A stretch of DNA of 35,342 bases from positions 1 to 35,342 of the forward strand of contig JAJFUH010000052.1 of the NCBI GenBank assembly GCA_021372535.1, written 5' to 3'. The DNA comes from a bacterium. GTDB taxonomy: Bacteria; Latescibacterota; Latescibacteria; Latescibacterales; Latescibacteraceae. Shown here in pieces: positions 3,413 to 24,274 of the stretch. The translations under genes were made by a program, and so were the position numbers. Positions within the stretch are counted from its first letter, which is position 1. Every line of letters begins with the position of its first letter. Below the pieces are notes generated by a model. It was given only the letters and a program-made list of their open reading frames with translations, ran no database searches and was not told the DNA's origin.

Positions 3413-5419
3413 ATGAAAAACCGGTCTCTGCTTTATCTGATCGCCCTGTCGGTGCTGTATTCGTTTTTTTTCTGTTTACCGGTCTACTCTGCCGGACATC
3501 AGGAATGGCTGAACCGTCTGATCCCGCTCCCCAAGGAAATTCGTTTTGATGGCGAGATTACCGTGGCGGTGAAGGATGTCTCCGTATGTCTGCGCCCCGG
3601 CGCCGGGCCGGTGGAACGTAACGCGGCGGAAGAGCTGGCCTCGCTCCTCGGAACGAATATAAGGACATCGACGGGAGCGGGGAAATTCGAGATTGTCATC
3701 GGTATGGTTGACAGTCGCGGTACAGTCATGGGTATTAACCTCGCCGGAGAAACGGAGCGTCTGAAAACACTCCCCAACAGCGAGCAGGCATACGTGATCC
3801 GCAGGAAGGAATCGAACAGGCTTGTCCTCGCGGGAATCGATGAGCGCGGGGTTTATTACGCCGTTCAAACGCTCGAACAGCTCCTCGGAAACCGGTTCGA
3901 CAGGGGTATGGTGACCATACCGCTTGCTGAGGTTACGGACTGGCCCGACCTGAAATACCGGGGAATGTGGGACGATACCTTTCCCGCCGATCAGATCGAA
4001 TGGATGGCTTCCCTCAAGATGAACCTCGTCGACTGCCTTACGAATCTCACTGTCGATGAGGACGGCCACGGCAGGGTTACCGCGATACCATCGAAAGGGC
4101 CGACAGAGATCGAGGGCGTCGATTTCCCGACATTCTGCGCCAGGCATGCCGTGCACTTCGTTCCCATCATTCTCCACCTCAGTCACCTGGAACGCACGGG
4201 TATCTACAAGAAATATCCCGATCTCATAGGCCGCGGCGCAACGATCGATGACCGGTTCATCCCCCCCTGCGCAAACAGACCGGAACTCGCCGCCGTACTG
4301 GCCGACTGGATGGAAGCGCTGGCGGGACAACCCTCTGTCGACGAGATTTCCATATGGCTCAGCGAAGTCGAACAGCAGTGCGACTGCGAGGAATGCCGCA
4401 AGGCCGGACAGTATGTCATGGAAACGCGGGCGATTCTCAAGGCGTACGAGCGGGCTCGGGTGAAATACCCTAACCTTCGAATCCGTATACTGCTGACACA
4501 GGGCAGCTATCCGACCAACGAAAAGATTCTGGCGGAGATTCCCGGAGATGTCGGGGTCGTTTATTATCACGGCGAGAAAACGTACGATTCCTCCCGCGAG
4601 CCGATGATATATTTTCCGCTGCGTGAGTATGCGGCGCGCGGACGGATGCTGGGAGTCTGTCCGCAGCTCACCGTTTCCTGGGCAGTCGTGTGCCCGTGGA
4701 GTTCCCCCCAGTTTGTCAGGGCGCGGATGAACGAATATGTCGACAAAGGTTTGACCCTCCTGAGCGCCTATGCCACTCCGAACCTCATGCTGTACGAATT
4801 CAATATCGCCGCCGCAGCGGAGTGGTCATGGAACGCGCACGGCCGTTCCGAACGGGATTTTGCACTCGCATGGGTGACGCGCAGGGGAATGAAGAATCCC
4901 GGGGCCGCCGCTGATTGGGCTGTTCTTCTCGGCTCGGTATCGTGGGATATCTACGGTTCGGCGGTACCCTTCAACTTTGTGCCCGGTTTCGGAATTACCC
5001 GTCGCATGATCGAAAATCGTGTCAGACCGATACTCGGCGAAGATATGTTCCGGTATTTTCCCACGACCGGGGATTTCGACAGGGCGCTGGAAAAGTGTGA
5101 CCGTGCGCTCGCGATTGCCCGTACCCTCGATGATCCGAAGATTCTCGAAGAAACGACGGTTGTCAGGGGATATATCGTGATGGCCCGTGAAATCTACGAG
5201 ATAACGGAACGGATTTCAGGGGGTGTCGCTCCGGATGACAGCGTGCGGAAAGAGATTGAAATGCATCTCGAAAAACTCACCGGGGCATGCAGCGGCACCA
5301 ACGATGCGTTGAAACGATGGGAAGCGCTTTTCGGTGAAGGTGCGGGCGGCGGACGGTTTACCGGCACGCTCAAACTGTCGGAAGACATCACGGCGATGAT
5401 ACGGGAATCGATACGCTGA
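3413..5419 (+). CDS. Exported GH20-like glycoside hydrolase family protein
   Basis: 668 residues. ATG 3413 is preceded by AAAGGA (3398-3403). The N-terminus is a classical signal peptide (KNR, a hydrophobic run with FFFCL, cleavage near YSA). Residues about 30-190 match the N-terminal alpha/beta domain of beta-hexosaminidases (IPLPKEIRF, then IDERGVYYAVQTLEQLL), followed by YRGMWDDTFPADQIEWMASLKMN, the entry into a GH20-like barrel. The usual GH20 acid pair in GGDE is not present. The equivalent place seems to read IWLSEVEQQCDCEEC, with a CxCxxC motif as in DUF4838-type proteins. I infer a periplasmic or secreted sugar-processing protein, perhaps with altered catalysis or a non-hexosaminidase substrate. 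Its neighbours are also exported and sugar-related, but spacing argues against one operon. Confidence 0.7.
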   Translation: MKNRSLLYLIALSVLYSFFFCLPVYSAGHQEWLNRLIPLPKEIRFDGEITVAVKDVSVCLRPGAGPVERNAAEELASLLGTNIRTSTGAGKFEIVIGMVDSRGTVMGINLAGETERLKTLPNSEQAYVIRRKESNRLVLAGIDERGVYYAVQTLEQLLGNRFDRGMVTIPLAEVTDWPDLKYRGMWDDTFPADQIEWMASLKMNLVDCLTNLTVDEDGHGRVTAIPSKGPTEIEGVDFPTFCARHAVHFVPIILHLSHLERTGIYKKYPDLIGRGATIDDRFIPPCANRPELAAVLADWMEALAGQPSVDEISIWLSEVEQQCDCEECRKAGQYVMETRAILKAYERARVKYPNLRIRILLTQGSYPTNEKILAEIPGDVGVVYYHGEKTYDSSREPMIYFPLREYAARGRMLGVCPQLTVSWAVVCPWSSPQFVRARMNEYVDKGLTLLSAYATPNLMLYEFNIAAAAEWSWNAHGRSERDFALAWVTRRGMKNPGAAADWAVLLGSVSWDIYGSAVPFNFVPGFGITRRMIENRVRPILGEDMFRYFPTTGDFDRALEKCDRALAIARTLDDPKILEETTVVRGYIVMAREIYEITERISGGVAPDDSVRKEIEMHLEKLTGACSGTNDALKRWEALFGEGAGGGRFTGTLKLSEDITAMIRESIR

Positions 5420-8238: not shown

Positions 8239-11187
8239 TTACTTGACGAGAAGCATTCGTCGGGTGACAACGGTCGAACCGGCTTCGATGCGGTAAATAT
8301 ACGCGCCGCTCGAATGGCCCATGCCATCCCACCTGACCGAGTATGTGCCCGGGACCATTGACGAATTATCGATCAGCGTATCGACCAGCTGGCCAGTTAC
8401 ATTATAGACTGACAGTTTGACCGGAGATGTTTCGGTGAGGCTGAAATTGATTGTCGTGGAGGGATTGAATGGATTGGGGAAATTCTGCGAAATCCGGATC
8501 GCTGCGGGGAGAGTATTCTCCTCGACCGCGACAACGGTGCCGGGTGCATGACTCAGAAAACCGTAATCGTCGAGCGCAGTCCAGCCGATCATCCAGTTGT
8601 CCTTGTCGAACGCGCCCTTGTAAGCGACCGTCTCAAAGAAACCGTCGTTCGGGATCGCCGCAAGGTTCTGATAGGCAGATCCGCTTGTGGCGGGACGCGG
8701 ATCCATGGCGCCATTGGGCTGGCGAGTGATGAAGGTAAGCATCGGATCGGCGATGGCGTTGCCGTTTTGGGCGAGCATATTGGCTGTATAGGCGGCTTCT
8801 CCTGATTTAACCATTGATACGGCTTCAAATGTCGATCCTGCCTTTATGTTGAAAAGAACGTTGTTCTTCATCACGAGCGAACCGTCGGCTACGCGATCGA
8901 CCGAGCCCTGGCCGGATGATGGTGTTTCGATGTAGAGGAGCTGACCGGACAGGTCGCCGATGATGTTGTTGGCCCAGGTACCAGCAGTGTTGTCGCGGAG
9001 GTGCATCCCGATCTTGGTTTCGGTTTCGGGTCCGTTCATGCCGGTACCGAGCAAGGTGCAGTTATACATCTGGGGGCGTGCCCATGGCTGGGCGTCCTCA
9101 GGCGCCACACCGCCGTCCTGCTCGGTGAGGGTGTCATTGCCTGTTCCCTCGCTCTGGATGGCGAAGCAGAACTGGAACTTGGAGCGGCAGCCTTCGTCCG
9201 TATCGAAGCAATCGTCCTCGCAGAAAGCCACCACAAAATGTTTCAGATTGACCGTGCCGCCGAAGATTTCGACACCGTCATCTTTCGATGCATACGATTC
9301 GACATAGTCAATTACGGTGTTATCGCCGACACCGCAGAGGGTGAGACCCTGCATTTCCTTGTTCGGTGCGAACACGATGCCGGTATGGCGGATTGAGATA
9401 TATTTCAGGACGCCGGAATTGTCATGGTCGTCATCGCCGCCGTAATTGGTGAAGGTCCATGTTGTGGGCATGCCTTCCATGGTCTGGACCTTGTTGGCAT
9501 TGTTGGTGGATGCCTTGCCGCAGAGCAGAACGCCGCCCCAGAAACCGGTTTCGAACGGGCCGACATCATCGGTGCTGTTAAGGTTGGTATCGTACTTGGT
9601 TGTGAAAATGATGGGGTGGTCGAGTGTACCGGCAGCGTTGATTTTGGCGCCCTGGCTGATGCAGAGAAAGCTCAGGCTTTCGAGCTGGCCGTCCTCGGCG
9701 CGGATAACCGTGCCCGGATCGATGGTGAGGGTATGGCCCGCGGTTACATAAACGGCACCGTTGAGAAGATAGTCGTTGTCGCTTGTCCAGTGGGTGTCCT
9801 TGTCGATGGGACCGGCATTAATGACGACTGTCTCGATCCCGCCGTGCTTGAGAAATCCGTACTTGTCGAGCGCGGTCCAGCCGATCATCCAGTTGTCCTT
9901 ATCGAATGCGCCCTTGTAGGCAACCGTTTCGAAGAAACCGTCATTCGGGACAACAGCCATGTTCTGGTATGCCGGGCTTCCGGTTTTTGGCCTGGGATCG
10001 AGTTTGCCGTCCGGCTGTCGGGAGATATTGGCGAGCATCGGATCGGTGATTGCGTTGGCATTATTAGACAGCATGGTGGCTGTATAGGCGCTTTCGCCCG
10101 ATTTCTTCATGCTGATCGCATCGAGCGTTGTCCCGGCTTTGATGTTGAAGAAGATGTTGTTTTTCAACACGAGCGATCCATCGGCTACGCGGTCCACGGA
10201 GCCCTGACCCGAGGACGGAGTTTCGATATAGAGGAGCTGACCGGAGAGGTCGCCGATGATATTGTTGGCCCAGGTGCCTGCGGTGTTGTCGCGGAGGTGC
10301 ATACCGATCTTGGTCTCGGTTTCGGGCCCGTTCATGCCGGTACCGAGAAACGTGCAGTTATACATCTGGGGACGCGCCCATGGTTCGGCGTCTTCGGGCG
10401 CCACACCGCCGTCCTGTTCGGTCAGCGTGTCGTTGCCCGTTCCCAGGCTCTGGATGGCGAAGCAGAACTGGAACTTGGCGCGGCAGCCTTCATCCGTGTC
10501 GAAACAGTCGTCCTCGCAGAAAGCCACCACAAAGTGTTTCATATTGACCGTGCCGCCGAAGATTTCGACACCATCATCCTTCGAAGCATACGATTCGACA
10601 TAGTCAATTACAGTGTTGTCGCCGACACCGCAGAGGGTAAGCCCCTGCATTTCCTTGTTCGGTGCGAACACGATGCCGGTATGGCGGATGGAGACGTACT
10701 TCATGATACCGGAATTGTCATGGTCGTCATCGCCGCCGTAATTGGTGAAGGTCCATGTTGTAGGCATGCCTTCCATGGTCTGGACCTTGTTGGCATTGTT
10801 GGTGGACGCCTTGCCGCAGAGGAGAACGCCGCCCCAGAAACCGGTCTCGAAGGGGCCGACATCGTCGGTACTGGCGAGGTCGGTGTCATACTTTGTCGTG
10901 AAAATGATGGGACGGTTTATAGTGCCGACCGCATTGATTTTAGCGCCCTGGCTGATGCAGAGAAAGCTCAGGCTTTCGAGCTGGCCGTCCTCGGCGCGGA
11001 TGACCGTGCCCGGATCGATGGTGAGGGTATGGCCCGCGGTTACATAAACGGCGCCATTGAGAAGATAGTCATTATCGCTTGTCCAGTGGGTGTCCTTGTC
11101 GATGGGACCGGCGTTGACGGTGATGGTCGCCGCGTGGGAAAGTGTCGGTACCGCAAGCATTAGTACAATAAGAAGAAGACGAAACAT
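8239..11187 (-). CDS. Type IX-sorted beta-helix-like surface protein with a 432-residue tandem duplication
   Basis: 982 residues. Start at ATG 11187 (MFRLLLIVLMLAVPTLSHA signal peptide), with GGAGG about 7 nt upstream. A longer in-frame start at 11277 would bury the signal. The mature protein begins with a module (NAGPIDKDTHWTSDNDYLLNG, LTIDPGTVIRAEDG, GVLLCGKA, DDGVEIFGGTVNMKHF, EDDCFDTDEGC) and repeats it almost residue for residue 432 positions later. This kind of sequence is known from FCB secreted proteins predicted to form right-handed parallel beta-helices. From about residue 900 it has FPNPFNPSTTINFSL and ends RRMLLVK, a type A type IX sorting domain, so it is probably surface-attached or released. 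It lies 105 nt downstream of the TonB-dependent receptor gene and is probably co-transcribed, with a terminator at 8183-8217. Its ligand or reaction is unknown. Confidence 0.85.
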   Translation of the reverse strand: MFRLLLIVLMLAVPTLSHAATITVNAGPIDKDTHWTSDNDYLLNGAVYVTAGHTLTIDPGTVIRAEDGQLESLSFLCISQGAKINAVGTINRPIIFTTKYDTDLASTDDVGPFETGFWGGVLLCGKASTNNANKVQTMEGMPTTWTFTNYGGDDDHDNSGIMKYVSIRHTGIVFAPNKEMQGLTLCGVGDNTVIDYVESYASKDDGVEIFGGTVNMKHFVVAFCEDDCFDTDEGCRAKFQFCFAIQSLGTGNDTLTEQDGGVAPEDAEPWARPQMYNCTFLGTGMNGPETETKIGMHLRDNTAGTWANNIIGDLSGQLLYIETPSSGQGSVDRVADGSLVLKNNIFFNIKAGTTLDAISMKKSGESAYTATMLSNNANAITDPMLANISRQPDGKLDPRPKTGSPAYQNMAVVPNDGFFETVAYKGAFDKDNWMIGWTALDKYGFLKHGGIETVVINAGPIDKDTHWTSDNDYLLNGAVYVTAGHTLTIDPGTVIRAEDGQLESLSFLCISQGAKINAAGTLDHPIIFTTKYDTNLNSTDDVGPFETGFWGGVLLCGKASTNNANKVQTMEGMPTTWTFTNYGGDDDHDNSGVLKYISIRHTGIVFAPNKEMQGLTLCGVGDNTVIDYVESYASKDDGVEIFGGTVNLKHFVVAFCEDDCFDTDEGCRSKFQFCFAIQSEGTGNDTLTEQDGGVAPEDAQPWARPQMYNCTLLGTGMNGPETETKIGMHLRDNTAGTWANNIIGDLSGQLLYIETPSSGQGSVDRVADGSLVMKNNVLFNIKAGSTFEAVSMVKSGEAAYTANMLAQNGNAIADPMLTFITRQPNGAMDPRPATSGSAYQNLAAIPNDGFFETVAYKGAFDKDNWMIGWTALDDYGFLSHAPGTVVAVEENTLPAAIRISQNFPNPFNPSTTINFSLTETSPVKLSVYNVTGQLVDTLIDNSSMVPGTYSVRWDGMGHSSGAYIYRIEAGSTVVTRRMLLVK
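8549..11117 (-). repeat. Tandem direct repeat, period 1,296 bp, inside the beta-helix gene
   Basis: Matching landmarks are exactly 1,296 bp (432 codons) apart, for example CCAGTGGG at 9787 and 11083, and the GTCGAGCGC segment near 8569 and 9865. Long stretches are identical at the DNA level and the rest differs mostly at third positions. This indicates a fairly recent in-frame duplication or ongoing gene conversion. Confidence 0.9.
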
Positions 11188-11292
11188 GTATGACCTCCGT
11201 ATGTATGGTGTATGTTGAAAACGTTCGAAAAACGATTTTTTTCCCGAGAATTTCACCTCCTTTGGGTTGTCGTGCAATCGATGGGTCGAACA

Positions 11293-16379: not shown

Positions 16380-17198
16380 CTATCGGGTCTGTTTCTGTCG
16401 CGCCTCGAACTCCTTCTCGATATCGAGTTCTTCGAGGGTTTGCCTGATCACATCGATGTAGTGTTCGGCGTAAGCTTTTGTTTCGAGGTTTTTCGAAGCG
16501 ATAGTGTATTCCTCGATAGCCTCCCGGTATTTCTTGTTGAAGCGGAGGTAATCGGCGACAGCGACTCGGGCGCGAGCGTGCCCGGGGTCCTTTGTAAGGA
16601 TGATTTGTGCGGTTTTATATGCGTTTTCGATATCACCAAGATCACTGTATGCGATGAGAATCTTTTCGAGAACTTCGATTTTTCCGGGATTGAGCTCATC
16701 GGCCTTTTTGAGGAGGGGAAGAGCATTTTTTTGCTGGCCGAGTTTCATGTAGAGGAGCGCCTTACCGTACCGCAGGTAGAAATTCCCGGGAAGCGCTTCG
16801 ATTCCGCGGTCGTACGCAGTGAGGGCGCTGCCGGTATCACCGGCGTTGTCCAGCGCGACCGGCAGCATCCGCAGGGCTTTCTCGTTGGCCGGGTCGCTTT
16901 CGATTACCCGCGCGAAGGCTTCGGCGGCTTCCTTATAGCGCTTCAGGCCGTTCAGCGACAGGCCGCAGGCGAACTGGGCATTGATGTTCCGTCCATCGAG
17001 CGCGTAGGCACGTTCGAAATGGGCGAGAGCCCCCTTAAAGTCGTTTTTCTTATAAAGGGCCAATCCATCGCGGTACTCGTCTCCGGATTCCCGGTTCACG
17101 ACTACATCACTTTCCTGGGCGCCCCGGATATCCGAAAAAGGCGCAAGAAAAAGCACGACCATCGTCCCCGCGAGTATATACGGAAACAAACTCCTCAT
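16380..17198 (-). CDS. Exported TPR protein of the Exb/TonB operon
   Basis: 272 residues beginning MRSLFPYILAGTMVVLFLAPFSDIRGA, a signal peptide or N-terminal anchor. Several tetratricopeptide repeats follow between about residues 40 and 235, with the usual spacing (YRDGLALYKKNDFKGALAHFERAYALDGRN, YKEAAEAFARVIESDPAN, YREAIEEYTIASKN). The C-terminal end is charged. It starts 10 nt after tonB, so it is almost certainly the last gene of that operon. TPR proteins at this position are common in ExbBD-TonB operons of several phyla and probably act as a periplasmic scaffold for the complex. That role is inferred from context. Confidence 0.85.
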   Translation of the reverse strand: MRSLFPYILAGTMVVLFLAPFSDIRGAQESDVVVNRESGDEYRDGLALYKKNDFKGALAHFERAYALDGRNINAQFACGLSLNGLKRYKEAAEAFARVIESDPANEKALRMLPVALDNAGDTGSALTAYDRGIEALPGNFYLRYGKALLYMKLGQQKNALPLLKKADELNPGKIEVLEKILIAYSDLGDIENAYKTAQIILTKDPGHARARVAVADYLRFNKKYREAIEEYTIASKNLETKAYAEHYIDVIRQTLEELDIEKEFEARQKQTR

Positions 17199-17208
17199 GT
17201 CAGCCCCC

Positions 17209-17883
17209 TCACTGTTCGAGCTCGAATGTGTATTTCATCTGTACCCAGCACTTGACCGGCATATCGTTCTGTTTCGCCGGTTTGAACGTCGTCTTCATCG
17301 CCGCCTGGATCGCGGCGTCCTTGAGCAGCTCCGGCCCTTTCATTACTTCGGCCTTTTCAACGGCCCCGTTCTTACCGACGAGCGCACGGACGAACACCGT
17401 TCCCTGGACACCGGCTTTCCGCGCCTCCTCGGGATAGGCAGGTGCTACCTCGCCGATGCGTTCCGGTTGCTCCTCGACCGCGAAGAACTCGAAAATTTCC
17501 TCCTCCACGGGCGCTTTTTCGACGACCGCCTCCGGTATGATCACCGGTTTCACCTCATTCGAGACCGGAGCATTGAGGTCGAGGGACGTATCGTCGATGG
17601 TGACGTCATCGAGCGAAACATCATCGCTCACTTCGAGAGGCATGGCGAGCTTCGGCGCGGGAGCGGTCACGCGCTGCCGTGTCTCCGGGATGTTTTCGAG
17701 CTGGATGATGACCGGCGGCGTTTTCACCTTTTTCTCGAGTTTTTCCTGCTTCACGATGGGAATGTTCAGCCCGAAACCGATTGCTATGATGGTGACAAGG
17801 GCACTCCCGAGAAGAATACGCGGCGACCGTTTGTGGAGATCGGCGCGTGGATTCTTGAAACCGATTATGGACGTCGATGTCAT
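17209..17883 (-). CDS. tonB: TonB-family energy transducer
   Basis: 224 residues. One transmembrane segment (about 24-42, ILLGSALVTIIAIGFGLNI) follows a short cytoplasmic lead. A periplasmic spacer rich in P, V, E and D (about 43-140) lacks the classical long Pro-Lys repeats. The C-terminal TonB domain (about 145-224) is clear: AYPEEARKAGVQGTVFVRALVGKNGAVEKAEVMKGPELLKDAAIQAAMKTTFKPA, then WVQMKYTFEL. Its start overlaps the exbD stop by 4 nt (ATGA), indicating translational coupling. It would transfer proton-motive-force energy from ExbB/ExbD to TonB-dependent receptors, of which two are encoded nearby. Confidence 0.92.
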   Translation of the reverse strand: MTSTSIIGFKNPRADLHKRSPRILLGSALVTIIAIGFGLNIPIVKQEKLEKKVKTPPVIIQLENIPETRQRVTAPAPKLAMPLEVSDDVSLDDVTIDDTSLDLNAPVSNEVKPVIIPEAVVEKAPVEEEIFEFFAVEEQPERIGEVAPAYPEEARKAGVQGTVFVRALVGKNGAVEKAEVMKGPELLKDAAIQAAMKTTFKPAKQNDMPVKCWVQMKYTFELEQ

Positions 17884-18296
17884 TTTTCCTGCTTCGCTAT
17901 GAATGATACCCGGTTGGCGTTCGCTTTCTTCAGCTCTTCGATGACTCCTGAAATCGTCCGGTAAGGCGTATCCTTGTCAGACTTCACCTGAACGATGATC
18001 CGGGGATTCTCCTGGAGCTTCCCGTTGACCACACCTGCTATGTCTTCGATGTTCACCGTGAACTCATCCACCATCGTTCGGCCGTTGGCACCGACCCAGA
18101 TGCTTACCACGTTCCGCCTGCTTTTAAGCGGGTCGATACGCTTTGCGGCGGGAAGATCGACCGGGAAACCACGGTAGACCACGAACACGGTGGTCACCAT
18201 AAAGAAAATGATCAATAGAAACGAAATGTCGGCCATCGGCCCCGTGGGGATGTCCTGCTCTATTTTTAACCGTTTTTTAAAACGAATCCTGCCCAT
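17880..18296 (-). CDS. exbD: ExbD-like biopolymer transport protein (second copy)
   Basis: 138 residues from ATG 18296. A start at 18326 is possible but would overlap the previous gene by 23 nt, and it adds residues not typical of ExbD. One transmembrane helix (IPTGPMADISFLLIIFFMVTTVFVV, about 15-40) carries the conserved aspartate in MADISFLL that couples to the proton motive force. The periplasmic domain follows (VSIWVGANGRTMVDE, VQVKSDKDTPYRTISGVIEELKKAN). It is diverged from the adjacent copy at 18304-18705. Tandem exbD genes are common in these operons and may form mixed dimers in the ExbB pentamer. Confidence 0.9.
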   Translation of the reverse strand: MGRIRFKKRLKIEQDIPTGPMADISFLLIIFFMVTTVFVVYRGFPVDLPAAKRIDPLKSRRNVVSIWVGANGRTMVDEFTVNIEDIAGVVNGKLQENPRIIVQVKSDKDTPYRTISGVIEELKKANANRVSFIAKQEK

Positions 18297-18303
18297 GTCT
18301 CTC

Positions 18304-18705
18304 TCACTCGGTGTCGGGTTGTGCAATTGATATCTTGTCGTTTCCAGCCTCTTTCACAGCGTCTATGATGTCAACGAACGACTCGTACCTGGCGGCGGGG
18401 TCGGTCTTGATCGACACGATGAGGAGGGGGTTCTGCCCGGTCATGGTTTTAATCCGCTGTTCGAGCGCGTCGAGGGAGACCAGCTCCATGTCCTGCATGA
18501 TCTCGCCGGCGGAGTTGATCCAGACTTTCGTGATGTTCCTGCTCGGCACCCTCGTCGATGCTCCATACTGCGGCAGAGTCAGTCCCAGCCCCTTGTCGTG
18601 GGAGAGGGATGTGGTCACGAGGAAGAACACGATCAGGAGGAACGCGATGTCCGCCATGGTCGAGGTGGGGATAGACGCCCGTACCCGTTGTCGTTTTTTC
18701 AGCAT
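18304..18705 (-). CDS. exbD: ExbD-like biopolymer transport protein (first copy)
   Basis: 133 residues. Start ATG 18705 is chosen because GGAGG lies 9 nt upstream and the next in-frame start (18783) falls deep inside exbB. A short cytoplasmic tail (LKKRQRVRASIPTSTMADIAFLLIVFFLVTT) leads into one transmembrane helix with the conserved D of MADIAFLL (about 19). A periplasmic domain follows with ITKVWINSAGEIMQD and IVSIKTDPAARYESFVDIIDAVKEAG. It lies 19 nt after exbB and 7 nt before the second exbD. Confidence 0.9.
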   Translation of the reverse strand: MLKKRQRVRASIPTSTMADIAFLLIVFFLVTTSLSHDKGLGLTLPQYGASTRVPSRNITKVWINSAGEIMQDMELVSLDALEQRIKTMTGQNPLLIVSIKTDPAARYESFVDIIDAVKEAGNDKISIAQPDTE

Positions 18706-18724
18706 GCCTTGCAGCCTCCATTCA

Positions 18725-19372
18725 TCACTGAACACCGGCTTCGTAGCCGAGGTCCACGAGGGTGTCCACGAACTTGCTCGCATTTTCCTCCATGGATACC
18801 ACGATACGGTCGATCAGGTACACACAGAGGTTGTAAGCCATCTGTATGGGTATCGCCACGAGAAGACCGCCCGCAGTGGTGATCAGCGCCATGGAAATTC
18901 CGGCAGCCACAATCGAGGGTTCGACATCCCCGGCGGCGGCAATGCTCCTGAACGCGGAGATCATACCCGCGACAGTACCGAAAAACCCGATCATTGGCGC
19001 CACATTTGCGATGGTGGCAAGCCATACAAGCCCGTTCTCGAGGAATGCCATCTCAACCGCCCCGGCGCTCTCCACCGCCTTCTCGACGTGGTCAATGCCC
19101 TTGTGCACCCGTGAAAGACCCGCATGGACGATTGTCGCCACCGGACCCGCTGTCTTCGTGCAGATTTCAGTTGCCTTTGCGAGTCCGCCGTTCCTGTCCT
19201 GGAGTGCCGTGTACACCTTGGAGTACAGGCGCCTGGTATTGAACATTGCGATAAAAATGACGACGAGCCGCCAGAGGGTGATGGTCACTCCCACGGCGAA
19301 CAGAGCCACCAGTGTCCACATGATGAGCGGACCGCCGTCGTTGATGTAGGTTAGAAATGTTTCCTTTGTCAT
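18725..19372 (-). CDS. exbB: ExbB/TolQ/MotA-family proton channel protein
   Basis: 215 residues, ATG 19372 with AGGAGG about 8 nt upstream. Three membrane segments are visible: about 13-36 (GGPLIMWTLVALFAVGVTITLWRL), about 108-135 (VWLATIANVAPMIGFFGTVAGMISAF) and about 150-180 (IVAAGISMALITTAGGLLVAIPIQMAYN). The signature AxxAPMIGFFGTVAGM and the TTAGGLLVAIP stretch are diagnostic of the ExbB/TolQ family. It is the first gene of exbB-exbD-exbD-tonB-TPR, and is preceded by a 382-nt gene-free stretch that should hold the operon promoter. Confidence 0.93.
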   Translation of the reverse strand: MTKETFLTYINDGGPLIMWTLVALFAVGVTITLWRLVVIFIAMFNTRRLYSKVYTALQDRNGGLAKATEICTKTAGPVATIVHAGLSRVHKGIDHVEKAVESAGAVEMAFLENGLVWLATIANVAPMIGFFGTVAGMISAFRSIAAAGDVEPSIVAAGISMALITTAGGLLVAIPIQMAYNLCVYLIDRIVVSMEENASKFVDTLVDLGYEAGVQ

Positions 19373-19755: not shown

Positions 19756-20871
19756 TTATTCTTTACCGCGTTTGAAAAAAGTGCGCTCGGCTTTTTCCTC
19801 GTCCGATTCGGGTCGTTCTATCTGCCAGATAAGCCGCTGGGCATTCGCGCTCCAGCGGTCGTCCTTCATTGCCTTCCTGAATTCATCGAGCGCCTTGTCT
19901 GTCTGCCCGAGGGTTTTATAATTCACTCCCAGGAGGATATGGAAACGGCCGTCCTCAGGAGCGAGCGCCATGCCTTTCTTCACATATGTGATGCCCTCTT
20001 CGGTCAATTCATCGGGATTGAAGTACTCACAGAGCTCGCCGAGCACCGCTACATTGTCGGGCTCTAACCCGTTGTGACGTTTCAGCGCCCAGACGAGATT
20101 AGCACGGTCGGAAAGGGCACGGTAGATATCCTCGATCACCACGATCACCTCAACCGATGTCGAGTCCGTCTCGGCAAGCCGGCGGTAGTACCGTGCCGCA
20201 CTCTCCCGGTCTTCGAGGAGCATGCTTGCCTTGCCCGATATCTCGAGCGCCCGGTGGTCGTCTTTCCGTTTTCCCATCGCCAGAACGGCATACATCCGCG
20301 CTTTTTCGTAATCACCCTTCCCGAAGGCGAATTCCGAAGCTTTCATAAGATTGTCATACGAATCTTCGCCCGATTCGATCAGAGTTGCCAGATCGGCATA
20401 AGCACCGTCGGAATCGCCGAGATACTCCCTGATGCTGGAGATTGTGGCGAGCAGCCTGGGATTATCCGGTTTGAGCTTGTGCATGAGGATGTACATTTCG
20501 AGTGTCGAAGCGTAATCGCCTTTTTCAGTGTAGAGCGTGGCGAGACGGGCAGCGGCGTTGTAGTAATCCTGTTTCAGTTCGAGGGCATGCCTGAACGCCT
20601 TCACCGCACCGTCCTTGTCGCCCATCTGATCGAGGAGATCGCCATAAGCGTAGTGTACCTGGTAGAGACTGTCCCAGAGAGCGATGGATTTCTCGAACTG
20701 CCTGCGCGCTTCCTCGCTATTTCCCGCGTTCTTCTGCTGCACGGCGAAGCTGTAATGCTTTTTAGCCTCGTTTACCGTCTCGTCGGTTGCAGAAAGACCG
20801 TTCGAGGGTGCTTTTAACACTGTCGCACCAACGACAAGGGCGAACACCGTACAGAAATAAATTCGTTTCAT
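19756..20871 (-). CDS. Exported TPR-repeat protein downstream of the TonB receptor
   Basis: 371 residues from ATG 20871. AAGGA lies 9 nt upstream, and an in-frame TTG two codons earlier is less likely. The signal peptide is KRIYFCTVFALVVGATVLKA. About eight tetratricopeptide-like repeats span residues 30-345 (HYSFAVQQKNAGNSEEARRQFEKSIALWD, GDKDGAVKAFRHALELKQDYYNAAARLATLYTEKGDY, LGVNYKTLGQTDKALDEFRKAMKDD). The C-terminus is charged (ERTFFKRGKE). It lies 119 nt after the receptor gene and may be the last gene of the Fur-controlled unit. Periplasmic scaffold or assembly role is inferred; no enzymatic motif is visible. Confidence 0.8.
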   Translation of the reverse strand: MKRIYFCTVFALVVGATVLKAPSNGLSATDETVNEAKKHYSFAVQQKNAGNSEEARRQFEKSIALWDSLYQVHYAYGDLLDQMGDKDGAVKAFRHALELKQDYYNAAARLATLYTEKGDYASTLEMYILMHKLKPDNPRLLATISSIREYLGDSDGAYADLATLIESGEDSYDNLMKASEFAFGKGDYEKARMYAVLAMGKRKDDHRALEISGKASMLLEDRESAARYYRRLAETDSTSVEVIVVIEDIYRALSDRANLVWALKRHNGLEPDNVAVLGELCEYFNPDELTEEGITYVKKGMALAPEDGRFHILLGVNYKTLGQTDKALDEFRKAMKDDRWSANAQRLIWQIERPESDEEKAERTFFKRGKE

Positions 20872-20990
20872 GGGCAAGTATCCTTCAAATCGATCCGGAA
20901 TGAACGTTTTTTTACAGTGCTCTCAAAATACACCCTGTATGTTAAGGTTCTGTAATAATTCCATATGAATTGTGTGAAAATAGACCGGGA

Positions 20991-23225
20991 CTACAGACCG
21001 AACATAATGCCGGCATAAATCATCCTCGGTGTTGACGGGCCATAGATGTATCCGGCGTCGCGGTCGATGCCGCGGTCGAGATCGTCCTGATAAGTATCAG
21101 TAATGTTTTTGATTCCCACCTTCAGCAAGGTCCCCTGACCGCCCGCCTGCGGGTAAATCAATTCATACGTGAATCCCAGATCCATCGTCACAAAAGAATC
21201 GGTCGTTTCGAGCCGGTCCGTTTCGATATATCCGGCGTAATGGGGCACTTTCATTGCTCCGGTATACTGCATGGCGGCAACAACTGACAGGCGGTGATGG
21301 GGAGTGTAATACACTATGAGATTACCGTATTGTCCGGGAGTCCGGAAGAGCCGTGAAATGCCGAAATCGGGCTCCGGAGAGTCAAGCTTGTCGGACTGGA
21401 AGGTGAAACTGCCCTGTGTCTCGATCGTTTTCACCGGTTTGAATCCGGCCTGGAGCTCCATACCTGAGACGGTCAGTCCATCTCCGTTCCTTCGTTCGAA
21501 CTCGAAGTAATCGGTGGATGGATCGTCGGCCTCCACCAGCTGAAACTGGTCGGTGAGAGAAGTGTGAAATGCGGTGATTCCACACTGTACGGGGTGGTCG
21601 GCCACAACACCCATGTAATCGAGCGTGGCGGACAAACTGATACTCTTTTCCTCGGCAAGACCATCGGAGTTTTTATAAATGTGACCCTCGCCGCCAACCT
21701 GGGTGATATGCAGATCTTCGTCGAACACCTGCGGCGGTTTGAATCCGGTCGACACACTGCCGCGGAGTTTCCACCCGTCAGTGATTTTCATCAGTGTGGA
21801 AACACGCGGGCTGATAACGGGGTTGTCGAGCAGCGAATGTTTGTCAAGACGAACACCTGCAACTACCGTGTATCTCTCAGCAAAAGAAAAGTCATCCTGG
21901 ATGAATATTCCCATGTCGTTATAAGTATCATCGATAATGCGGTTATATGAGACCGCTTCATCTTTAAGATATTCCGACAGATATGTGACGCCGCCGGTCA
22001 TACTATGCGAACCCGCCGAGTAGTGCAGTAAGCCGGATACATAATGAACCGGGTTTTCGGTTCTGCCGTAGGCGTTAGGGTCCCGGCCCGCGCCGTAATA
22101 CGTATCCCGGTTTGCCAGCGCGAACGAGTAACCGGCGTCGAATGAGAGGTTACTATTGACATTGTGCGTATATTTAACATTACCGCCCCACCGATAACTT
22201 TCGATGGCTTCACTGATGTCTGCCTGATGGCTCGGTTTCGTCAGGCTGTTACCGCCGCGGCGGTTCTCATGAATCCGGTGCACACTGCCGGTCAGCTCGC
22301 TCTGCTCAGTTATCGTACGGTACATCGTGAATCCGAGCGTTTCCCCGCTGATTTCTCCAATGTCCGTGAAACCATCATCATCACGGTCATATCCATTCTG
22401 ACGGCGTGCGTTGCCGAAAATGAACATGCCGTATTTGTTGTTATCGGCGGTCATTTCACTGAAAAAACCGGATTCCGCCCGGGCATGATCACCAGCCACT
22501 TTATAATCAAAGCTTACACCGCCGGTATTGACAGCAGGGCGACGGAGGCGGATATTCACCACGCCGCCGATGGCATTCGCACCGTAAAGAGCTGAACCGC
22601 CGCCCTTCACGATTTCGAGAGATTCGATCATCTGTTCGGGAAACTGCTGAAGGCCGTATACGCCGGCCATGGTCGATACGACCGGATCGCCATTGATGAG
22701 AATCTGGCTGTAACCGCCTTCGAGCCCGAGCATGCGCAATTGCGAGAAACCGCAATTCTGGCAGTTGTTTTCGACACGAACCCCTGGAGTAAACTGGAGA
22801 ACTCCGAAAAGGTCGGGTTCCACAACCGCTTCGATCTGCCGTTTCGGAATTACCTCGGTTTTGACCGGGGTATCCTCAAAGAGATGTTTTGTCTGCGTCC
22901 CGGTCACGACGATTTCGCCCATGTTGAACATGGAGACTTCCAGCCGGGCGTGGACAACACCGCCGGTGGCCTTAATCTCGACCGTCCTGTAACCCGTCAT
23001 CTGGAAGACAAGGATAAAGTCTTCATGGGGGACATCGGTCAGCGTCCAGAGTCCATCCTTATCAGTTAAAGTTCCGATTTTTGTTCCTTTCACAAATACC
23101 GCAGCGCCGTAAATTGGCTCCCCGGATTCTTTTTCGGTAACGGTACCCGACACTTCTTTGGCCGAAGCAGCGGAAGTCGATACTATTAACCAGAAAATCA
23201 TTATGGCAGGTATAGATAAACGCAT
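20991..23225 (-). CDS. Fur-linked TonB-dependent receptor with a CxxC plug motif
   Basis: 744 residues. ATG 23225 (MRLSIPAIMIFWLIVSTSAASA signal) is chosen because AAGGGAG lies 7-8 nt upstream. A longer in-frame start at 23501 would overlap the upstream small gene. Residues about 23-105 form a CarboxypepD_reg-like domain (GTVTEKESGEPIYGAAVFVKGTKIG). A plug follows (FGVLQFTPGVRVENNCQNCGFSQLRMLGLEGGYSQILINGDPV, then IVKGGGSALYGANAIGGVVNI), then a 22-strand-type barrel. The NNCQNCG motif recurs in FCB receptors of this type and could bind metal or form a disulfide. A Fur-box-like site (23731-23753) precedes the upstream small gene, so an iron, metal or metallo-ligand substrate is inferred, not shown. 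Confidence 0.9.
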   Translation of the reverse strand: MRLSIPAIMIFWLIVSTSAASAKEVSGTVTEKESGEPIYGAAVFVKGTKIGTLTDKDGLWTLTDVPHEDFILVFQMTGYRTVEIKATGGVVHARLEVSMFNMGEIVVTGTQTKHLFEDTPVKTEVIPKRQIEAVVEPDLFGVLQFTPGVRVENNCQNCGFSQLRMLGLEGGYSQILINGDPVVSTMAGVYGLQQFPEQMIESLEIVKGGGSALYGANAIGGVVNIRLRRPAVNTGGVSFDYKVAGDHARAESGFFSEMTADNNKYGMFIFGNARRQNGYDRDDDGFTDIGEISGETLGFTMYRTITEQSELTGSVHRIHENRRGGNSLTKPSHQADISEAIESYRWGGNVKYTHNVNSNLSFDAGYSFALANRDTYYGAGRDPNAYGRTENPVHYVSGLLHYSAGSHSMTGGVTYLSEYLKDEAVSYNRIIDDTYNDMGIFIQDDFSFAERYTVVAGVRLDKHSLLDNPVISPRVSTLMKITDGWKLRGSVSTGFKPPQVFDEDLHITQVGGEGHIYKNSDGLAEEKSISLSATLDYMGVVADHPVQCGITAFHTSLTDQFQLVEADDPSTDYFEFERRNGDGLTVSGMELQAGFKPVKTIETQGSFTFQSDKLDSPEPDFGISRLFRTPGQYGNLIVYYTPHHRLSVVAAMQYTGAMKVPHYAGYIETDRLETTDSFVTMDLGFTYELIYPQAGGQGTLLKVGIKNITDTYQDDLDRGIDRDAGYIYGPSTPRMIYAGIMFGL

Positions 23226-23323
23226 GGATATCTCCCTTCCGTAAAAAAATAAAAAAATGAGCGTATAGATCACGCTGTGGCGATCAGGAATGTACCATGA
23301 TAATGGCTGAAAAAAGGTGAAGG

Positions 23324-23638
23324 TCAGGCGGCAGCCGGCGGTGCACGGTTGGGAGAAATCGTAATGGAGAATTGGGAATGTGGAAAAAAGTAAAATATCG
23401 AGATAAAACAGCAAGGAATCCGGATAAAACCGAGCAGAACGAGTATGTAGAGAAGTAGCGGTCCCAGTTCGAGGGACAGGAATGAGTCGCAGATGGGGCA
23501 ATACACGTTATTGACGACATCCTCGAATGTATGCCTGTACGTATAATCCCACGAAATGATGCACAAGGAAAGAACCGCGATGAAAAGCATGAAAAGACTT
23601 TTCCGGTTCACAATAAATTCTGGTTCCGAACCCCGCAT
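23324..23638 (-). CDS. Small membrane protein with CPIC motif and RAPP tail
   Basis: 104 residues starting MRGSEPEFIVNRKSLF, with AAGG about 12 nt upstream. Two hydrophobic segments (about 15-30, LFMLFIAVLSLCIIS; about 58-85, GPLLLYILVLLGFIRIPCCFISIFYFF) flank an extracytoplasmic loop containing NNVYCPICDSF. The C-terminus carries NRAPP. Small proteins with two membrane segments, a CPxC loop and a terminal RAPP-like motif sit beside metal-related TonB receptors in other genomes (DUF2946-like). The resemblance here is partial. It lies between fur and the receptor, just downstream of a Fur-box-like palindrome, 98 nt before the receptor gene. I infer a metal- or redox-related accessory. Reality as a gene is supported by context and signal-like composition, not by a firm family match. 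Confidence 0.65.
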   Translation of the reverse strand: MRGSEPEFIVNRKSLFMLFIAVLSLCIISWDYTYRHTFEDVVNNVYCPICDSFLSLELGPLLLYILVLLGFIRIPCCFISIFYFFPHSQFSITISPNRAPPAAA

Positions 23639-23730: not shown

Positions 23731-23753
23731 TTGATATTGAGACTCATTCGCAA
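23731..23753 (-). promoter_or_regulatory. Fur-box-like palindrome upstream of the small gene and TonB receptor
   Basis: An 11-1-11 imperfect palindrome, TTGATATTGAG then A then CTCATTCGCAA. The right arm is the exact complement of the left arm of the fur-promoter site at 24224-24246. It lies 93 nt upstream of the gene starting at 23638. A minus-strand TTTACA (about 23760) is a possible -35 element, but the matching -10 is weak. Confidence 0.75.
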
Positions 23754-23774
23754 TAGATGTAAAAAAAAACGAGA

Positions 23775-24209
23775 TCAATCCTTTTTTCGACATTCGCCGC
23801 AGTATCCCCGAATACTCAGATGGTGTTCAACCGCAGTGAACATGTTTTTTCTGCATATCTCATCCTGAAGTTTTTCGATTCTGTCTTCGGAGAATTCAAT
23901 AATTTTCCCGCACTGTATACAGACAAGGTGGTCGTGATGTTTACGACCATATGCATGTTCGTACCTGGTAGCACCGGTACAGTCCAGCGTTTCCTGAATT
24001 ATATGGCTTTCGAGAAGCAGGGGTATGATCCTGTATACCGTGGCCCGTGAAATGTGCGCATTTTTCCTGCGCAGGTTGTCATACAGGTCCTCGACATAGA
24101 AATGACCGTCAAGCGCGGTCACCGCATTCAGAATCATCGCACGGGAGCCGGTATATTTCAGGCCGTTTGCCTGAAGGTATTCCCTGAATTTTATTTCCGC
24201 AGAAACCAT
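23775..24209 (-). CDS. fur: Fur-family metal-responsive transcriptional repressor
   Basis: 144 residues, ATG 24209 with AGAAGG close upstream. The winged-helix DNA-binding part (about 5-80) includes KYTGSRAMILNAVTALDGHFYVEDLYDNLRRKNAHISRATVYRIIPLLLESHII. The metal and dimerisation part has YEHAYGRKHHDHLVCIQCGKIIEF (HHDH, and CxxC at about 97-100), with a second CxxC, GYCGEC, near the C-terminus for structural zinc. Fur, Zur and PerR are hard to separate by eye. The promoter site has the TTGCRAATGAG arm typical of Fur boxes in many phyla, which favours Fur. It appears self-regulated (24224-24246) and lies directly upstream of the small CPIC gene and TonB receptor. Confidence 0.9.
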   Translation of the reverse strand: MVSAEIKFREYLQANGLKYTGSRAMILNAVTALDGHFYVEDLYDNLRRKNAHISRATVYRIIPLLLESHIIQETLDCTGATRYEHAYGRKHHDHLVCIQCGKIIEFSEDRIEKLQDEICRKNMFTAVEHHLSIRGYCGECRKKD

Positions 24210-24223
24210 GTGCCTTCTTTTGG

Positions 24224-24246
24224 TTGCGAATGAGTCTCAATTGCAA
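24224..24246 (-). promoter_or_regulatory. Fur-box-like operator in the fur promoter
   Basis: A 23-bp palindrome with arms TTGCGAATGAG and CTCAATTGCAA around a central T (2 mismatches between arms). It begins at the edge of the -10 element and covers the expected transcription start of fur, a position typical of autorepression. Confidence 0.85.
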
Positions 24247-24274
24247 TTATAACTCCTTCATTCCCGTTTGTCAA
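24246..24274 (-). promoter_or_regulatory. Consensus sigma-70-type promoter of fur
   Basis: On the minus strand, TTGACA (24269-24274) and TATAAT (24246-24251) are both perfect and separated by exactly 17 nt. The -10 is immediately followed by the Fur-box-like palindrome, and the fur start codon is about 37 nt further on. Confidence 0.92.

Follow-up and report, generated by a model that had tools for sequence, protein, structure and literature searches.

An iron-responsive Fur protein very probably represses both its own promoter and the adjoining run of genes for a CPIC-motif protein and a TonB-dependent receptor, acting through two Fur boxes, in the 35,342-nucleotide stretch of DNA analysed here (the window). 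Judged from sequence, this would be an ordinary case of Fur autoregulation with a single neighbouring operon as further target, new in an uncultured Latescibacterota-related genome. The finding leaves the understanding of how Fur works unchanged; what it offers is a concrete, testable predicted iron switch for this genome, a Fur-box matrix that is usable across several candidate phyla, and a suggestion as to the one TonB receptor, out of 13, that is under iron control.

The Fur protein and the adjoining genes

The fur gene and the genes that follow it, down to the second TPR gene, all lie in the same direction on the minus strand, with 136 nt between fur and the CPIC gene. The features of this region are as follows.

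23775–24209, minus strand: fur, Fur-family repressor, 144 aa (Pfam, NCBIfam, PDB, alignment)
23324–23638, minus strand: small membrane protein with a CPIC motif (CPxC) and a C-terminal RAPP, 104 aa; homologues in G001 and G002
23260–23276, minus strand: terminator-like hairpin with a T run between the CPIC gene and the receptor (pattern scan, not above shuffled background)
20991–23225, minus strand: TonB-dependent outer-membrane receptor, 744 aa, CarboxypepD_reg-Plug-barrel (Pfam)
19756–20877, minus strand: TPR protein (Pfam TPR)
18725–19372, minus strand: ExbB (MotA/TolQ/ExbB; PF01618, E 1.6e-30)
18304–18783, minus strand: ExbD (PF02472, E 2.7e-24)
17880–18326, minus strand: second ExbD (PF02472, E 9.5e-23)
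17209–17883, minus strand: TonB C-terminal protein (PF03544, E 5.3e-19)
16380–17198, minus strand: TPR protein, final gene of the co-directional run

By its sequence, the product of 23775–24209 is a Fur protein, nearer to Fur than to PerR or Zur. It matches the FUR family (PF01475) over residues 15–133 (E 8.4e-33), covering the winged helix and the C-terminal dimerisation domain, and its nearest PDB entries are Fur proteins, e.g., 6d57, 4ets, and 2xig. Among the NCBIfam models, those for Fur gave E-values of 1e-24 to 1e-25 (85–89 bits), against 1e-16 for PerR (61 and 46 bits) and 6e-10 for Zur (39 bits), all of these scores lying under the curated cut-offs. In an alignment of seven sequences, H36, E84, H91, H92, H94, C97, C100, C137, and C140 were invariant; they include an HHDH motif at 91–94 and the CxxC pairs C97/C100 and C137/C140, which we take from Fur structures generally to have regulatory or structural roles as metal ligands. 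A phylogenetic tree set the protein apart from paralogues with PerR and Zur contexts and grouped it, with modest support (87), with Furs of Omnitrophota, Aerophobetes, and Elusimicrobia. An orthologous Fur was absent from the genome of the same genus that was searched (G001). The circuit is therefore not present throughout the lineage, and either horizontal acquisition in the present genome or loss from G001 may account for this.

The genome holds two further FUR-family members. One (contig C10) scores best against PerR in NCBIfam and lies near thiol-peroxidase-like and desulfoferrodoxin-like genes, and the other (C96, L069) is Zur-like and adjoins znuABC. A perfect 7-1-7 palindrome, TGCAAATCATTTGCA, is present upstream of the Zur-like gene at 5082–5104.

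The CPIC protein has homologues in two relatives (E 2.8e-12 and 3.7e-9), namely G001 (L236) and G002 (L237 and L238). Directly downstream of L236 and L238 lie genes resembling TonB receptors or other outer-membrane proteins, the one in G001 being receptor-like. No Pfam family was found for the protein, and neither of the two regions scanned upstream of its homologues contained a Fur box. A role as a Fur-linked partner was not retained, the homologues being in genomes in which no orthologous Fur was found; the protein may serve as a small partner connected with metal or haem. The best PDB match of the TonB receptor is the colicin I receptor (E 7e-21). Rfam gave no match to a leader RNA or riboswitch ahead of the receptor, the only hit in the window being a tRNA elsewhere. 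Also in the window, a long open reading frame (8239–11277) is internally duplicated, its two halves of about 450 aa each being nearly identical, and has a C-terminal segment resembling a secretion tail.

A consensus promoter and two candidate operators

Three sites around fur make up the candidate regulatory region.

24246–24274, minus strand: fur promoter, TTGACA-17-TATAAT, 12/12 consensus
24224–24246, minus strand: operator 1, candidate Fur box, TTGCAATTGAGACTCATTCGCAA (matrix score and core match)
23731–23753, plus strand: operator 2, candidate Fur box, TTGATATTGAGACTCATTCGCAA, between fur and the CPIC gene and TonB receptor

A preliminary description of this DNA had called the fur promoter fully consensus, and it is: TTGACA (24274–24269) and TATAAT (24251–24246) are separated by 17 nt on the minus strand. 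The same description held such a promoter to be rare, which carries less weight than was claimed. The arrangement is uncommon, but 13 exact copies, including that of fur, occur in the genome, and matches with at most one mismatch number 126 against 35 for a reversed-pattern control, from which it follows that the genome does use the TTGACA-17-TATAAT consensus. Operator 1 begins on the last T of TATAAT, as had been noted, so that box and -10 have exactly one base in common. The second palindrome reported upstream of the CPIC gene and the TonB receptor is likewise present, is identical to operator 1 at 21 of 23 positions, and has an 11-nt arm exactly in common with it. Beside operator 2 there is no clear promoter, the best -35/-10 combination reaching 8/12.

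The palindromic character of the sites, on which the preliminary description had leaned, is a weaker argument than their agreement with a conserved motif. Read as 11-1-11 palindromes, operators 1 and 2 have 9/11 and 8/11 complementary arm positions; in the window, 69 such positions have at least eight complementary pairs (58 with eight, 8 with nine, 3 with ten). Arm complementarity by itself is thus within chance, and we rejected it as the main evidence. A motif matrix built from related fur promoters scored the operators at 28.7 and 28.3 bits, with the next window site at 9.7. A second matrix, which took the E. coli Fur box as its sole seed and was trained on fur promoters from outside the phylum, gave 27.9 and 27.6 bits; the runner-up in the window, about 17 bits lower at 10.4, is the same site read at a shifted, overlapping position. 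In the register of TGAnnnTGAnnnTCAnnnTCA, operator 1 fits 10 and operator 2 fits 11 of the 12 specified positions. A pattern search of the genome (5.35 Mb, 95.9% complete) found the two operators to be the only full 14/14 core matches to TTGNNANTGANNNTCANTNNCAA.

Box conservation and the reach of the regulon

A Fur box of at least 9 bits lies upstream of 44 of 84 related fur genes, where shuffling predicts 2.9, and its position relative to the -10 is alike at orthologous fur genes. Taking the best promoter in each case, the -10 and the box share exactly one base in 17 of 43 box-bearing fur promoters; nine of the 43 have a 12/12 promoter (shuffled flanks average about 7.5/12). In whole-genome scans of five relatives from the phylum, the best box matches fell at the fur locus. 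In many genomes the box is also found ahead of feoA/feoB, frequently together with a full-consensus promoter, and feoAB adjoins orthologous regulators that carry this box. TonB receptors homologous to that of the window are preceded by a box in Elusimicrobia, Latescibacterota, and KSB1 genomes (L081, L103, and L142), accompanied in L103 by a 10/12 promoter. These associations with feoAB and TonB receptors tie the box to iron independently of the window, and the comparative evidence as a whole supports the earlier suggestion of a strong promoter that would be clamped by its own repressor, together with one local target. At loci L075–L081, L096, L104, L105, and L108, from several phyla, feoA/feoB is preceded by a full or near-full consensus promoter that has a single -10 base in common with a Fur box.

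In the genome itself, the expectation of a wider regulon was not borne out: the motif scan gave no further sites upstream of TonB receptors or other transport genes. The pattern search of 5.35 Mb found no match to TTGNNANTGANNNTCANTNNCAA with one mismatch, and 14 with two mismatches, compared with 11 in the reversed control. The two-mismatch sites examined, C229:17795 being left out, are within coding sequence, except for one that has no recognisable iron gene beside it. Near matches on C70 and C93, inside coding genes, and on C49, inside a 334-aa open reading frame resembling FliM, were put down to chance. The claim of uniqueness rests on the pattern search because the sequence-model search of the genome scored 150 of 3510 first-look candidates. 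No strong box was found near the other 12 plug-domain TonB receptors of the genome; the best score there, 13.5 bits, falls inside the stretch downstream of the plug of one receptor. Nor was a box found at the feoAB genes, whose single feoB (C215, L248) is part of a run of a dtxR/mntR-type gene, feoA, and feoB. Upstream of the dtxR/mntR-type gene, GTTAGGCACTCCTAAC directly follows TATACT and resembles a DtxR-type box. A further cluster with a TonB receptor, an FecCD permease, and related genes (C75) probably serves B12 uptake, as it contains a cobalamin riboswitch (L249, 11315–11507, 109.9 bits).

The lack of a box at 12 receptors and at feoAB, together with the DtxR-type gene at feoAB, fits a local regulon in which Fur controls the TonB receptor run only. 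The preliminary description had regarded a lack of other hits near transport genes as grounds for abandoning its idea. Although no such hits were obtained, the idea is not overturned, because other genomes point to the function, and the regulon here appears local. A broader proposal has two parts that would both have to hold, and for the pair together we see the case as evenly balanced: that an exact sigma-70 consensus fur promoter, overlapping a 23-bp Fur box by one base of its -10, is an ancient arrangement retained in many uncultured phyla, and that the iron system in this lineage is split, with Fur governing one TonB-receptor operon and FeoAB under a DtxR/MntR-type regulator with a TTAGG..CCTAA box.

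Proposed mechanism, alternatives, and known systems

In the mechanism that we propose, Fe2+-loaded Fur dimers would occupy two boxes in the canonical register, TGxnnnTGAnnnTCAnnnxCA. At operator 1 the dimers would cover the -10 and the start region of the full-consensus fur promoter, giving negative autoregulation, and at operator 2 Fur would repress the run of CPIC protein, TonB-dependent receptor, TPR, ExbB, ExbD, ExbD, and TonB. At low iron both sites would be freed, and the receptor and its energising complex would be made. We infer iron as the co-repressor, the binding and its repressive sign, the extent of the operon, and an iron chelate or haem as the substrate of the receptor; passage across the inner membrane would presumably follow via FeoAB after reduction. 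As no recognisable promoter stands beside operator 2, the target of this site might be transcription reading through from fur, or a promoter that escaped recognition or is of another type.

The weak -35/-10 match near operator 2, nowhere above 8/12, and the common direction of fur and the downstream run also leave some room for operator 1 being the only functional site, with operator 2 a duplicated remnant or a block to fur read-through rather than the operator of a promoter of its own. We regard this as rather unlikely, given that operator 2 matches operator 1 in strength and that boxes precede the receptor gene in L081, L103, and L142, in L103 with its 10/12 promoter. That both palindromes are products of chance and fur is not autoregulated is scarcely credible: arm palindromy of 8–9/11 is frequent in the window, but so close an identity between the operators, the 17-bit gap to the next site, their uniqueness in 5.35 Mb, and the conservation of the box in other phyla all speak for real sites.

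Fur, PerR, and Zur have a common fold and similar palindromic sites, which lends some plausibility to a regulator that is a peroxide-sensing PerR or zinc-sensing Zur homologue acting on PerR or Zur boxes. This is improbable here. The NCBIfam scores favour Fur, and the surroundings of the gene are a TonB-ExbB-ExbD system instead of peroxide or zinc genes. Both alternative roles appear to be filled by the paralogues, PerR-like on C10 and Zur-like beside znuABC with its own TGCAAATCATTTGCA box, whereas orthologues of the window regulator with the same box adjoin feoAB. An iron-responsive, autoregulated Fur with two operators is therefore the reading that we prefer.

Much of this circuit is known from other bacteria: published work (PMC545781) covers Fur autoregulation, the box register, small regulons of local reach, Fur control of feoAB and of exbBD-tonB clusters, and box pairs offset by 6 bp. 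In the literature searched, Fur boxes of this lineage were nowhere described. Worth keeping are the cross-phylum geometry of promoter and box, a modest extra, and the way in which Fe uptake appears to be divided between Fur and a regulator of DtxR type. In delta-proteobacteria, the FUR box WTGAAAATNATTTTCAW, sometimes as two boxes shifted by 6 bp, occurs upstream of fur itself and of iron uptake genes, with small local regulons in Geobacter; Desulfovibrio has overlapping boxes at a 6-bp offset and an exbB-exbD-tonB cluster that Fur controls (PMC545781). The present system resembles these in its box before fur and putative iron uptake genes, its local regulon, and its exbBD-tonB genes under predicted Fur control, but differs in that the TonB-receptor run is the sole target found and feoAB is without a box, beside a DtxR/MntR-type regulator. 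Three Fur-family paralogues (Fur, PerR, and Zur) have been predicted in Leptospirilla (PMC2631029). The trio recurs in the window genome, which unlike those of Leptospirillum and Acidithiobacillus has one single Fur-box-bearing receptor and belongs to a different phylum.

Fur box models have been treated elsewhere (PMC7536154). The E. coli-type box, GATAATGATNATCATTATC (cited in PMC545781), is in the same register as the window boxes, its TGA/TCA elements recurring every 6 bp, and the matrix built from related fur promoters gives its consensus 26.5 bits. The window boxes depart from it at the outer half-sites, where most arms have TGC/GCA in place of TGA/TCA, and at the centre, with GAC/GTC instead of TAA; a further difference is that the box adjoins a full-consensus -10 directly.
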